DNA from: a virus
IMG/VR virus record: IMGVR_UViG_3300032223_003149
Location: 1 to 31,450 of that record
Strand: one strand, 5' to 3'
Length of the DNA: 31,450 bases
The position numbers and the translations under genes were made by a program. How positions within the stretch are numbered: the stretch's first letter is position 1; every line of letters begins with the position of its first letter. The notes under the pieces were generated by a model that saw only the letters and a list, made by a program, of their open reading frames with translations, was not told the DNA's origin and searched no databases. This document shows, piece by piece, positions 20,861 to 25,055 of the stretch.

Positions 20861-21433
20861 ATGCCTTTCAATATAGATTCGTTTAAAGCAAATATTGATG
20901 AATATGGTTATTTACAGAATAACAAATACGAAGCCAGAGTATACACTCCTCCATTTTTAGCAGGAGGTATTAATGGCGGTGGCGATCGTATGGCGAGTAT
21001 AATGAGGTTTCGTATCGATACCGTTAGAGCTCCAGGAATTCAAATTCTTTCCGCAGACAATAATAGATATGGTGTTGGTCCAACACAAAAACAACCTATT
21101 AATGCTCAATTTAACGAAATTTCTATTTCATTTATTGTTGACGAAAATGGAGAAATTTGGCAATTTTGGTATGACTGGGTAAGAGGAATATATGAATTTA
21201 CTTCAGATAATGTTACTAATCGTCAAGGTAGATATTCATCAAGATATAAAAATGAATATGCTTCTTTTATGCAAATATTAGTATTTGATAATTATGGAAA
21301 TACAGCAAAAACATTTAACATATATGAAGTATTCCCAACTTCTATTAACGAAACATCTTTATCTTGGAACGATACTAATCAAGTATTAAAGCTTGGCGTC
21401 ACATTGTCATATAAAGAATTTAATATCGAATAA
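20861..21433 (+). CDS. Tail-tube-fold protein (gp19/gp54 type)
   Basis: A 190-residue protein with the T4 tube-fold signature. It starts NNKYEARVYTPPF, continues FRIDTVRAPGIQILSADNNRY (tube-type clasp region), ISISFIVDENGEIWQFWYDW (T4 gp19: WTVTVMNDEAHDARQKFVDW) and ends YEVFPTSINETSLSWNDTNQ then LKLGVTLSYKEF (T4 gp19: LWPTNVGEINLDWDNNNEIQTFEVTLAL). T4 gp19 (163 aa, tube) and gp54 (320 aa, tube initiator) share this fold. Being in a baseplate/hub operon favours a gp54 role; size and the tube-then-chaperone gene order favour a tube role. The choice is open. AAGGA ribosome site 5 bases upstream. Confidence 0.75.
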   Translation: MPFNIDSFKANIDEYGYLQNNKYEARVYTPPFLAGGINGGGDRMASIMRFRIDTVRAPGIQILSADNNRYGVGPTQKQPINAQFNEISISFIVDENGEIWQFWYDWVRGIYEFTSDNVTNRQGRYSSRYKNEYASFMQILVFDNYGNTAKTFNIYEVFPTSINETSLSWNDTNQVLKLGVTLSYKEFNIE

Positions 21434-21457: not shown

Positions 21458-22165
21458 ATGTCATTGCCTAAAATTTCACATCCAACATACAACATCAAAG
21501 TTCCTTCTTTAAACAAGAACTATAAATTTCGCCCATTCCTTGTTAAAGAAGAAAAAATCCTATTAATGGCTAAAGAATCAGATAAAGAGGCTGATATTTT
21601 CTCAGCTATCAAACAAATTGTTAATGTTTGTTCTTTGGACGATTTGAACGTAGATAAACTAGCTATATTTGACCTTGAATATCTGTTCTTGAAAATCAGA
21701 GCATTTTCTATAGAAAATATTATCAAAGTTTCTTATAAAGATCTAGAAGATAATAAGAATTATGATTTTACTATAGATTTAAATGAAATTGAAGTCAAAT
21801 TTCCTGAAAAAATTGTCAATAATATAAAAATAACTGAAAATATGGGTATAATTATGAAATACCCATCTGCATCAATTTATGATGACAAAGAATTTCTTGA
21901 TTTAGATAAAGATTATCTTTTTGAACTTATAATAAGATGCGTAGATAAAATATACGAAGAAGATACTATTTTCGAAGCTAAGGATTATTCAAGAAAAGAA
22001 ATAGGCGATTTCTTAGAAAATTTAGATAGTAAAACATTCGCTTCGATACAAGAATTTCTTGTAAATTCTCCAAAATTAGAACATGTAATTAAATACAAAA
22101 ATTCATTCGACAACGAAAGGGAAATAACGTTAAATTCGTTGAATGATTTTTTTACGTTGCGCTGA
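21458..22165 (+). CDS. 26: gp26-family baseplate hub assembly protein (0-frame product)
   Basis: A 235-residue T4_baseplate (gp26) family protein. The start YNIKVPSLNKNYKFRPFLVK followed by EEKILLMA is the family hallmark; the rest is acidic and helical. T4 gp26 (208 aa) helps assemble the hub and tape measure. The zero frame ends at TGA 22163-22165, ten bases after a run of seven Ts that permits a -1 shift (next entries). GGAG ribosome site 8 bases before the ATG. It is flanked by the tube-fold gene and, after a holin-like gene, by a possible tape-measure gene, which fits a tail-assembly chaperone. Confidence 0.88.
   Translation: MSLPKISHPTYNIKVPSLNKNYKFRPFLVKEEKILLMAKESDKEADIFSAIKQIVNVCSLDDLNVDKLAIFDLEYLFLKIRAFSIENIIKVSYKDLEDNKNYDFTIDLNEIEVKFPEKIVNNIKITENMGIIMKYPSASIYDDKEFLDLDKDYLFELIIRCVDKIYEEDTIFEAKDYSRKEIGDFLENLDSKTFASIQEFLVNSPKLEHVIKYKNSFDNEREITLNSLNDFFTLR
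22147..22153 (+). promoter_or_regulatory. -1 frameshift slippery heptamer T-TTT-TTT
   Basis: Seven Ts sit so that the last two zero-frame codons on the site are TTT TTT, the form XXX-YYY needed for simultaneous -1 slippage. In the -1 frame there is a TGA at 22144-22146 directly before the site, and the frame is open from 22147 to 22323. The zero-frame stop follows 10 bases downstream. A 6-base complementary pair (TACGTT 22173-22178, AACGTA 22195-22200) may form a weak downstream stem. Confidence 0.75.
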
Positions 22166-22326
22166 GTCACAATACGTTAGAAAATTACTATCATAACGTA
22201 TTTACTTTAGCTCAGCACCATAAATATTCTATAAGCGATATTGAAAATTTAATGCCTTTTGAACGTGATATATATGTACAAATGTTAATTGCTTACGTCA
22301 AAGAAATAGAAAATAAGAGGAATTAA
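22153..22326 (+). CDS. -1 frame extension of gp26 (57 aa, GT-like tail chaperone end)
   Basis: After a -1 shift on the T run, translation continues YVALSHNTLENYYHNVFTLA, then QHHKYSISDIENLMPFERDI and YVQMLIAYVKEIENKRN to TAA 22326. The predicted fusion has 289 residues (232 + 57). No ATG, GTG or TTG lies in this frame before the internal ATG of LMPF, which is 34 codons in, so independent initiation is unlikely (only a CTG at 22162 is available). The segment has a compact helical look and resembles C-terminal domains of lambda-type GT chaperones in its HKYS-I-DIENLMPFERD pattern. That likeness is by eye only. Confidence 0.7.
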   Translation, partial: YVALSHNTLENYYHNVFTLAQHHKYSISDIENLMPFERDIYVQMLIAYVKEIENKRN

Positions 22327-22328
22327 TA

Positions 22329-22841
22329 ATGGCAAAATTCGCTTCAAAAGATATAGATGAAGAACCAATACCACCAGTTGAAAGAGAGTTCACACCTAAA
22401 TCAAAACTTGTTCCTCCTCCGATCACAACTATATCAACGCCTCCACCAGCAGCTCCACAAATTTCAGTAGTAGAAACAGTTATTACTACACCTCCTCCTG
22501 CTCCTGTTCAAACTCCTCCGCCTGCTAGCGCTGCGCAAGTTGCACTTGATACTTCTGTATTCGAACAACAAGTTAAAAAGGAAGAAGAACATTGGATGAA
22601 GTCATACTGGCGTCCTGCCATGGGATGGCTTTATATGATAATTTGTTTCGTTGATTTCGTAGTGTTTCCAGTCATAGCAATGTTTATGCCAGTTGTCTTA
22701 AAAGGTGTTGGTATTCAAATGCAATATGTTGCTTGGCAATCTCTCACACTATCAAACGGCGGATTAATTCACCTTGCTTTCGGCGCTATACTTGGTGTAA
22801 CATCTTATACTCGCGGTCAAGAAAAGATCGCAGGAAAATAA
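22329..22841 (+). CDS. Holin-like membrane protein with proline-rich N-terminus
   Basis: A 170-residue protein. Residues 1-72 are Pro-rich and probably disordered (PPPITT, PPPAAPQ, TPPPAPVQTPPP). Residues 95-168 match the three-TM holin type found in gene transfer agents and many alphaproteobacterial and T4-like phages: SYWRPAMGWLYMIICFVDFV, VFPVIAMFMPVV, LTLSNGGLIHLAFGAILGVT and SYTRGQEKIAG (family: WRP-M-W-YM-IC--DF, LT--G-GL-H-A-GAILG-T-Y-R--EK). It may be a holin, or a membrane protein aiding DNA entry given its place inside a tail operon directly before a hydrolase gene. The GAGG ribosome site lies inside the end of the frameshift extension. Confidence 0.7.
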   Translation: MAKFASKDIDEEPIPPVEREFTPKSKLVPPPITTISTPPPAAPQISVVETVITTPPPAPVQTPPPASAAQVALDTSVFEQQVKKEEEHWMKSYWRPAMGWLYMIICFVDFVVFPVIAMFMPVVLKGVGIQMQYVAWQSLTLSNGGLIHLAFGAILGVTSYTRGQEKIAGK

Positions 22842-22844
22842 TAA

Positions 22845-25055
22845 ATGGCAGATCAAAATTTAGCAGCATTAGCTCAACAAATTAATAGATTTTCTGATAC
22901 AGCGTCAGAACATTTGAACACATTTAGGCAATCTGCAGGCGAACAAAATAGATCTATTACCAAAATGATAAAGGACATAGCTGGTCATTTTACCAGACAA
23001 AACGGTTCTTTAGAAAATATCTCAGCATCTATGTCTGATAATGCTGACAGTATTAATAATTTATCAAGAAAAATTGACAACAGCACAGGTATAATGAATC
23101 AAAGCATAGGCGTACAATCTAGTATGCTTAGTGAGTTACAAAATATTAACAGTTCTATTGGAGCTCTAATAAAGGTTACAAGACAAAATATTAATAATAA
23201 CAATAATAACACAAACGATCCCAAAGGTGGTGGTTTATTAAAAAATTTAGAACAAACTTTATGGGGTCTTGGTGCAACTAGAACCGCCGCAAGATTAAGA
23301 ATGGGGCGTAGTTGGTTAGGTGGACCTGCAGGGCAAGCTCTTGGAGCCGCAGGCACTTTAGGTAAATATGGATTTATGGCAGGAGCTGGAATTTATGGTG
23401 GAGCTTCTATAGGTCAAGGTTTGATGGGCGACCGTCAAACTCCACTAGTTTCAAATACTACTACTGCAAAGGATTTACCAGAAGGCGCAAGTGCATTACT
23501 TGATACCATTGCTGGACGCGAAAGTGGTGGAGATTATAATAAAATAAACCACAAAGCATTTCCTTCTGGACTACAAAAATCAGGCAAAGAAGGAGAACAT
23601 CCTTTTAAAGGTCAAAAAGGTTATACGGCTGCAGGTAGATATCAATTTTTAAATAATACATGGGAAGAAACAGCGAAAAAAGCTGGATTAGATCCAAACG
23701 ATTTTTCTCCTGAAAATCAAGATAGAGCTGCTTGGTATCTAGCTAAACAAGATTACAAAAAAGGAACTAAGAGAAATCTTGAAGAAGATATCAAAGATCC
23801 TAAAATGGCAGGTACAATATTAAATAATTTAGGTTCTTGGAAAGAAGCTGATAAAGGTGTTGCAGCTCCAGCATTTTCAGAAAAAACTTTCCAGCAAAAT
23901 ATGCAAAAGGAAAAAGCTAGAAGAGAAGAAGCAGCTGTAAAAACCAACGAACAAGCTAAAACAACCCCACAAGCCCAGCAAAATCAGTCAGAAACAACAA
24001 AAGCTCCATCAGCGCCTGCTGTTAAACCAGAAGAAGGTGAAGGTCAAGGTCCAGCTGCTAGCGCTACTTCAAAACCACAAACAACAGAACGTCAAGGCGA
24101 AGGTAAAGTTGATGAAAAACAAGCGAAGGAATTCCTTTCATCAAGACAAACTGGCGGCGCTGGTTTCGTTGGAGTAAACGCTGATAAACTCAATTCTGAT
24201 TTTGCTGTTAAACTAACGGAAGCTATTCAATTTGCAGAAAAAGCATCTGGCGAACGAATTGGTATAACTGAAGGTTATAGACCTCCAGAAGTTCAGGCTC
24301 AGTATTATGCAAATTATATCGGCAAAGACGTAGAATGGAATGGGCAAAAATATAGCCCACAAAAACAAGGCGGTCTTGCAGCTCCTCCTGGTCAATCGAA
24401 TCACCAAAAAGGTACAGCTGTTGATATATCTGGCGGAAGAGCTAGAGAAATACTCAGAGCAAATGCTTCCAGATTTGGTTTGAAAGATTTAGGTTCAAAA
24501 GATCTTCCACATTTTCAATTGTCTAGCGGCGAAAACGAAGAACAAATTTCTAGAAGAGAAAGACCACAACCACAACAATCTTATGCTTTTGCAGGCGGCG
24601 GACCAGGATATCACCCAATGACTCCTTTAATGATGGGAGGAGGAATGAGAGGTATGGGAGGTATGGGCGCATTAGGTATGGGAATGATGAACCCAGCTAT
24701 GGGTATGATGATGGGCGGAAGAATGGGTAGAACTGGAGGTTTAATAGGTCTTGGAGCAAATATATTAGACAGTATACTTTCTAGACCATCACGTGAGGAA
24801 AAACCAACAGCTCCTGCTAGAATGGTTGCTCCATCAGTACCACAGCCATCAAAAGAAATTGAAAGAGCAGCAGTAAACGAAAAAGTTGAAGATAGTTCTA
24901 AGAAAAACCAACCTCCTGTCGTTATTCAACAAGGAGGAGCGCAGCAAAAACAACAACCAAACATCAGTGAATCTGCTAGAAGAGATAAAGTTACGTCAGC
25001 CGCCAATCCTTGGGCTATGGAACTTAAAGAATACTATAAAACTTCTCTTGCATAA
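22845..25055 (+). CDS. Two-domain peptidoglycan hydrolase, possibly tape-measure type
   Basis: 736 residues. The first 130 are helical and coiled-coil-like (repeated ISASMSDNADSINNLSRKI, MLSELQNINSSIGALI); residues 140-205 are Gly/Ala-rich and hydrophobic. A lysozyme/transglycosylase domain spans about 211-335: TIAGRESGGDYNKIN (E226 as likely catalytic acid) and GYTAAGRYQFLNNTWEETAK then DFSPENQDRAAWYL, close to lambda endolysin R (TGAGRYQLLS, DFSPKSQDAVAL). A second domain at about 426-562 is peptidase M15/VanY-like: RPPEVQAQYY, SNHQKGTAVDI (H520, D527) and LPHFQL (H556) as zinc ligands. A Met/Gly-rich stretch (586-645) and a basic, Gln-rich tail follow. It may replace the missing gp5 lysozyme in puncturing the wall. 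Confidence 0.78.
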   Translation: MADQNLAALAQQINRFSDTASEHLNTFRQSAGEQNRSITKMIKDIAGHFTRQNGSLENISASMSDNADSINNLSRKIDNSTGIMNQSIGVQSSMLSELQNINSSIGALIKVTRQNINNNNNNTNDPKGGGLLKNLEQTLWGLGATRTAARLRMGRSWLGGPAGQALGAAGTLGKYGFMAGAGIYGGASIGQGLMGDRQTPLVSNTTTAKDLPEGASALLDTIAGRESGGDYNKINHKAFPSGLQKSGKEGEHPFKGQKGYTAAGRYQFLNNTWEETAKKAGLDPNDFSPENQDRAAWYLAKQDYKKGTKRNLEEDIKDPKMAGTILNNLGSWKEADKGVAAPAFSEKTFQQNMQKEKARREEAAVKTNEQAKTTPQAQQNQSETTKAPSAPAVKPEEGEGQGPAASATSKPQTTERQGEGKVDEKQAKEFLSSRQTGGAGFVGVNADKLNSDFAVKLTEAIQFAEKASGERIGITEGYRPPEVQAQYYANYIGKDVEWNGQKYSPQKQGGLAAPPGQSNHQKGTAVDISGGRAREILRANASRFGLKDLGSKDLPHFQLSSGENEEQISRRERPQPQQSYAFAGGGPGYHPMTPLMMGGGMRGMGGMGALGMGMMNPAMGMMMGGRMGRTGGLIGLGANILDSILSRPSREEKPTAPARMVAPSVPQPSKEIERAAVNEKVEDSSKKNQPPVVIQQGGAQQKQQPNISESARRDKVTSAANPWAMELKEYYKTSLA

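Follow-up and report, generated by a model that had tools for sequence, protein, structure and literature searches.

How the end of a gp26-family gene in an uncultivated phage is read, as one short protein or as a short and a long form with a common N-terminal domain, is the question raised by this locus. The window, i.e. the whole stretch of DNA analysed, is a 31450-base IMG/VR virus record. Very probably, a T4-like phage makes its pair of tail assembly chaperones from this locus, with the short and long forms generated by -1 programmed frameshifting as a T4-type G/GT.

The gp26-family gene and its reading frames

20861-21433, plus strand: tail-tube-like protein, directly upstream of the gp26-family gene (phrog_45 tail tube, E 3e-30)
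21458-22165, plus strand: gp26-family gene, predicted short tail assembly chaperone (TAC-N, G-like), 235 aa (PF12322, phrog_150, predicted fold)
22144-22146, plus strand: TGA closing the -1 frame directly 5' of the slippery site (read from the sequence)
22147-22153, plus strand: slippery heptamer T TTT TTT (T TTT TT[T/C/A] in 158/158 loci, wobble bases fixed)
22163-22165, plus strand: zero-frame stop TGA, ten bases past the heptamer (read from the sequence)
22147-22326, plus strand: -1 frame extension (predicted TAC-C, T-like; gp51 family), matching phrog_634 and the fused C terminus of T4 gp51
22329-22841, plus strand: small holin-like membrane protein, downstream (phrog_3427, E 2e-7; PF11351 slightly under cut-off)
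22845-25055, plus strand: large protein of 736 aa with a VanY-like peptidase domain (PF02557, E 3e-8)

In profile searches, the gp26-family gene matches PF12322 (E 4e-53; 180.6 bits, with a curated cut-off of 24.5) and phrog_150 (E 3e-58). The tube-like gene lies directly 5' of it, and the large gene located 3' is, by its position, a candidate tape measure; the phiM12 counterpart of the latter carries the annotation 'similar to tape measure proteins'. This large protein has a coiled-coil-like N terminus in addition to the VanY-like peptidase domain, and could be a tape measure equipped with a domain for degrading the cell wall.

The zero-frame codons near the end of the gp26-family gene are AAT GAT TTT TTT ACG TTG CGC TGA. 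The extension lacks a start of its own because the TGA at 22144-22146 closes the -1 frame immediately 5' of the slippery site, an arrangement common to 39 of 158 loci. Past this TGA the -1 frame is open for 59 codons, 57 of which follow the site, until the TAA at 22324-22326. Its first ATG is found at 22252, within the conserved LMPFERD block, and further upstream only a CTG is present at 22162. The initial annotation had described exactly this geometry, namely a -1 frame closed before the heptamer and open afterwards, a zero-frame stop ten bases downstream and no normal start before a late internal ATG, and the positions bear it out; the arrangement is far beyond chance. A shift at this point would result in a product of about 289 aa, with NDFFYVALSHNTLENYY as the predicted junction peptide in the window. 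The slippery site is U UUU UUU, whereas that of lambda is G GGA AAG.

Conservation among relatives and identity of the extension

A set of 158 distinct loci with both parts was assembled from six annotated records together with three viral-contig scans; a 159th (L161), without a usable pair, was left out of the counts. The initial annotation had proposed aligning relatives in search of a conserved slippery site and extension, and both were found at 158/158 loci, with the extension always in the -1 frame. The heptamer falls on a conserved Phe-Phe and reads TTTTTTT in 95 loci, TTTTTTC in 62 and TTTTTTA in one. All 158 loci use TTT for the first Phe and have T as the last base of the codon before it, whereas across seven further conserved Phe positions of the gene these frequencies are 50-85% and 10-46%, respectively; the wobble bases of the heptamer are fixed far past coding need. 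In a set thinned so that residues 1-180 were no more than 60% identical, 97/97 loci retained the heptamer.

Among 13 cultured phages, which belong to several families, 12 likewise have a T TTT TTN site (S-PM2, DLP6, phiM12, S-WAM1, ACG-2014j, pf16, Ci1, phiM9, OLIVR5, BUCT608, R10Z and XG4), the sole exception being Vibrio phage K476. In K476 (L192, 4182-4405) the heptamer is replaced (ACG CTT TTT GCG TAA TGATGG) and a -1 frame ATG overlaps the gp26 stop, and this lineage may have swapped frameshifting for a separate start. In about 15 loci (L042, L053, L056, L072, L123, L130 and similar ones) the zero frame extends 24 nt past the heptamer, compared with 0-9 nt, and therefore the short form has a longer tail there.

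The profile search with the 59-residue -1 translation returned phrog_634, 'baseplate hub assembly catalyst' (gp51), at E 9.6e-24, along with a weaker match to the end of phrog_150, the gp26 profile; this identity as gp51 was overlooked in the initial annotation. According to tblastn, the extension is found in 627 phage records, cyanophages for the most part. A joined gp26-gp51 CDS is present in 0/12 annotated records (L001-L003, L005, L006 and L187-L193), gp51 being a tiny separate ORF or omitted, and hundreds of public records would misannotate the pair. The gp51 of cyanophages has been reported to have only about 20% of the length of T4 gp51, unexplained there (Sullivan et al. 2010, PMC3037559). 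Both in cyanophages and in marine vibriophages, gp51 would look truncated because gp26 supplies the missing N-terminal part via frameshifting.

In T4, gp26 and gp51 are encoded by separate genes on opposite strands, and both proteins match PF12322 (gp26 E 9e-64, gp51 E 4e-52). The extension is found only on gp51, fused in frame to a gp26-like domain, and the C terminus of this protein matches phrog_634 at E 1.2e-23. On sequence grounds, T4 genes 26 (short form) and 51 (same domain plus extension) are paralogues. The frameshift genes, T4 gp26 and T4 gp51 form three separate groups in the tree, which cannot date the duplication because its branches are long. None of the 10 T4-type gp26 genes with a readable end has the slippery heptamer; they keep Phe-Phe or a related pair, typically as GA[A/G] TTC TTT, and the heptamer therefore tracks the need for frameshifting rather than the amino acids.

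AlphaFold models, for which the alignment was built without rows from annotated records, are confident, with a pLDDT of 88.8 for gp26 and 91.3 for a T4-type gp51. The best three PDB matches of the gp26 model in VIA-align were 3fgx (Z 8.1), the HK97 tail assembly chaperone 2ob9 (Z 7.5) and YqbN 3klu (Z 7.1), Z values of 7-8 being close to the level called common in the notes of VIA-align; they were followed by 5ir0 (Z 4.9), with all others at <=2.8. Both 3fgx and 3klu are prophage tail proteins of the XkdN type. The 2ob9 match spans 84 residues and corresponds to residues 1-90 of the predicted gp26 fold. In Foldseek, 2ob9 ranked 27th for the gp26 model with an E-value that is not significant, no VIA-align match above Z 4.6 was obtained for the T4-type gp51 model, and PDB sequence searches with the gp26 and gp51 profiles returned chance matches only. 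The N-terminal domain appears to resemble the HK97 chaperone in its predicted fold, a likeness at fold level only.

RNA signals and alternative readings

22161-22167, plus strand: 5' arm of a covarying downstream stem, with a 7-nt spacer from the heptamer (pair counts, synonymous null)
22210-22216, plus strand: 3' arm of the same stem (pair counts, synonymous null)
22171-22202, plus strand: upper hairpin of the window's own predicted structure (ATACGTTA/TAACGTAT), a form that relatives do not keep

In the gap-free alignment of the 89 loci with T TTT TTT, bases 15-23 from the heptamer start pair with bases 62-70. Across these loci 86.7% of cells pair in the stem, compared with 20-38% when one arm is slid, and both sides changed in 31 cells, compared with 9.6 in shuffled data (0/500 shuffles as high; sequence relatedness ignored). 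The mean longest helix in the stem register is 7.56 vs 4.07 in same-amino-acid variants (21.7 SE, relatedness ignored). Against synonymous variants, the mean folding z of the group is -2.65, and for the window stretch only 0.95% of the variants reach an equally stable folding. A search of Rfam at the locus found no relevant family, apart from a chance microRNA match. S-PM2 (L001 4019-4060) features a long perfect hairpin past its slippery site (GTTCTATAATAAT/ATTATTATAGAAC), which differs from the window stem and has a folding z of -4.0 against synonymous variants.

The loci with T TTT TTC have an SD-like core 8-11 nt upstream (about 10) more often than the T TTT TTT group. At this site the Glu codon is GAG in 24/30 cases, compared with 29% elsewhere in the gene (p 1e-8, relatedness ignored), and the downstream stem and the SD-like core are anticorrelated (Fisher p 1e-4, relatedness ignored). 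The odds appear about even that lineage-specific, undescribed RNA signals drive frameshifting in T4-like chaperones, with a compensatory stem 7 nt past U UUU UUU in one lineage (which would also tie distant amino acids together), an internal SD-like element some 10 nt 5' of U UUU UUC in the lineage of the cyanophages, and a later switch of T4 to gene duplication and fusion. The two signals may be novel: no earlier report of them was found in a search that covered Vladimirov et al. 2022 through later papers citing it. The stem and the SD-like element would represent a natural series of bacterial frameshift stimulators.

A less likely reading, which nevertheless deserves weight, accepts the frameshift and regards the downstream pairing as a by-product of conserved codons instead of a stimulator. 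It is consistent with the outcome of RNAalifold, which called no consensus stem in the 89-sequence T TTT TTT alignment or its 54-sequence subset, and the evidence for the stem therefore consists of pair counts, synonymous nulls and folds of single sequences. It is also consistent with the T TTT TTC group, where a stem in the register of the window was not found and 1/62 loci has 8 or more pairs. However, pairing exceeds the synonymous nulls, the stem is kept by differing codon pairs (AGT/GCT, AAT/ATT and AAC/GTT), and a stable lineage-specific hairpin occupies the same place in most cultured phages.

The remaining alternatives concern the frameshift itself. Most public records, including those of S-PM2, DLP6, phiM12, phiM9 and OLIVR5, annotate gp51 as a small gene of its own, yet its translation as such, through coupling or reinitiation past the gp26 stop, is highly unlikely. 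Separate ATG-started genes in relatives had been named at the outset as evidence against frameshifting. An ATG is indeed found directly past the gp26 stop in some annotated phages and within the first 11 codons past the site in 37 of the 158 loci, so reinitiation is possible in some of them, and K476, having no heptamer, may use that route. That part of the objection stands; against the rest, 44 loci have only GTG or TTG in this interval and 77 have none of the three codons, the extension in the window has no start before 22252, the heptamer is equally invariant in loci with and without an ATG, and T4 gp51 unites the extension with a gp26-like domain. Slippage during transcription of the T run, which would produce the long form without ribosomal frameshifting, is suggested by the seven T of the window and is exceedingly improbable: in 62 of the 158 loci the run is only six T long and ends with a C, shorter than known polymerase-slippage runs (nine in the cases named in PMC5009743), and the downstream stem and the SD-like element are in line with ribosomal frameshifting. 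A split of one gene through an error in sequencing or assembly is practically negligible as an explanation. Homopolymer runs are error-prone, but the same split at the same codon recurs in 158 independent loci and in 12/13 cultured phages, and this explanation was rejected since the relatives refute it.

Proposed mechanism and relation to known systems

In the favoured reading, a T4-type G/GT pair, most ribosomes would end at 22163 and release the 235-aa short form (gp26, G-like), while a minority would move back by one base at U UUU UUU, probably aided by the stem-loop that starts 7 nt downstream. The slip would lead to the 289-aa long form, whose C-terminal 57 residues would correspond to gp51 (T-like). 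If lambda G/GT is a guide, the shared domain may coat the tape measure and the extension may recruit the tail tube. Both the -1 frameshift mechanism and the view of the gp26 family as the T4-type G/GT, put forward in the initial annotation, are strongly supported by the conservation, by the fused T4 paralogue gp51 and by the fold. If true, the long-obscure T4 hub proteins gp26 and gp51 would gain a testable role as tape-measure chaperones.

The initial annotation knew of no report of such a frameshift for the gp26 family, but it was already in print in 2022 according to citations in PMC12846349 and PMC10885494. There, the poly-T frameshift signals in TAC-N genes are credited to Vladimirov, Gautam & Davidson, Virology 2022 (PMC12846349), and the two-gene strategy of T4 to Vladimirov et al. 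2022 (PMC10885494). With both credited to the 2022 paper, the central claim is therefore already published. The core idea has been public since then, and the surprise is limited accordingly. The abstract of that paper reportedly describes frameshifting as conserved in several T4-like groups, with T4 using genes 26 and 51.

G-T frameshifting has been described as widely conserved, with T4 as an exception (Atkins et al. 2016, PMC5009743). The T4-like chaperones of Vladimirov et al. 2022, including T4 26/51, share with the window the gene family, a short and a long form and, according to PMC12846349, a poly-T site in TAC-N, whereas the uncultivated phage of the window is apparently not named in that paper. 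Lambda G/GT and HK97 (Xu, Hendrix & Duda 2004) similarly have a -1 shift close to where a short chaperone gene ends, and this gene too is preceded by a tail-tube-type gene; unlike in these phages, in the window a holin-like gene lies between the chaperone gene and the candidate tape measure. Vandenendeviridae and Andersonviridae (PMC12846349) also feature a -1 frameshift at the TAC-N end and an extension that annotations wrongly treat as a gene of its own or omit, but they are other phage families and their motif is an invariant GTTTTT.
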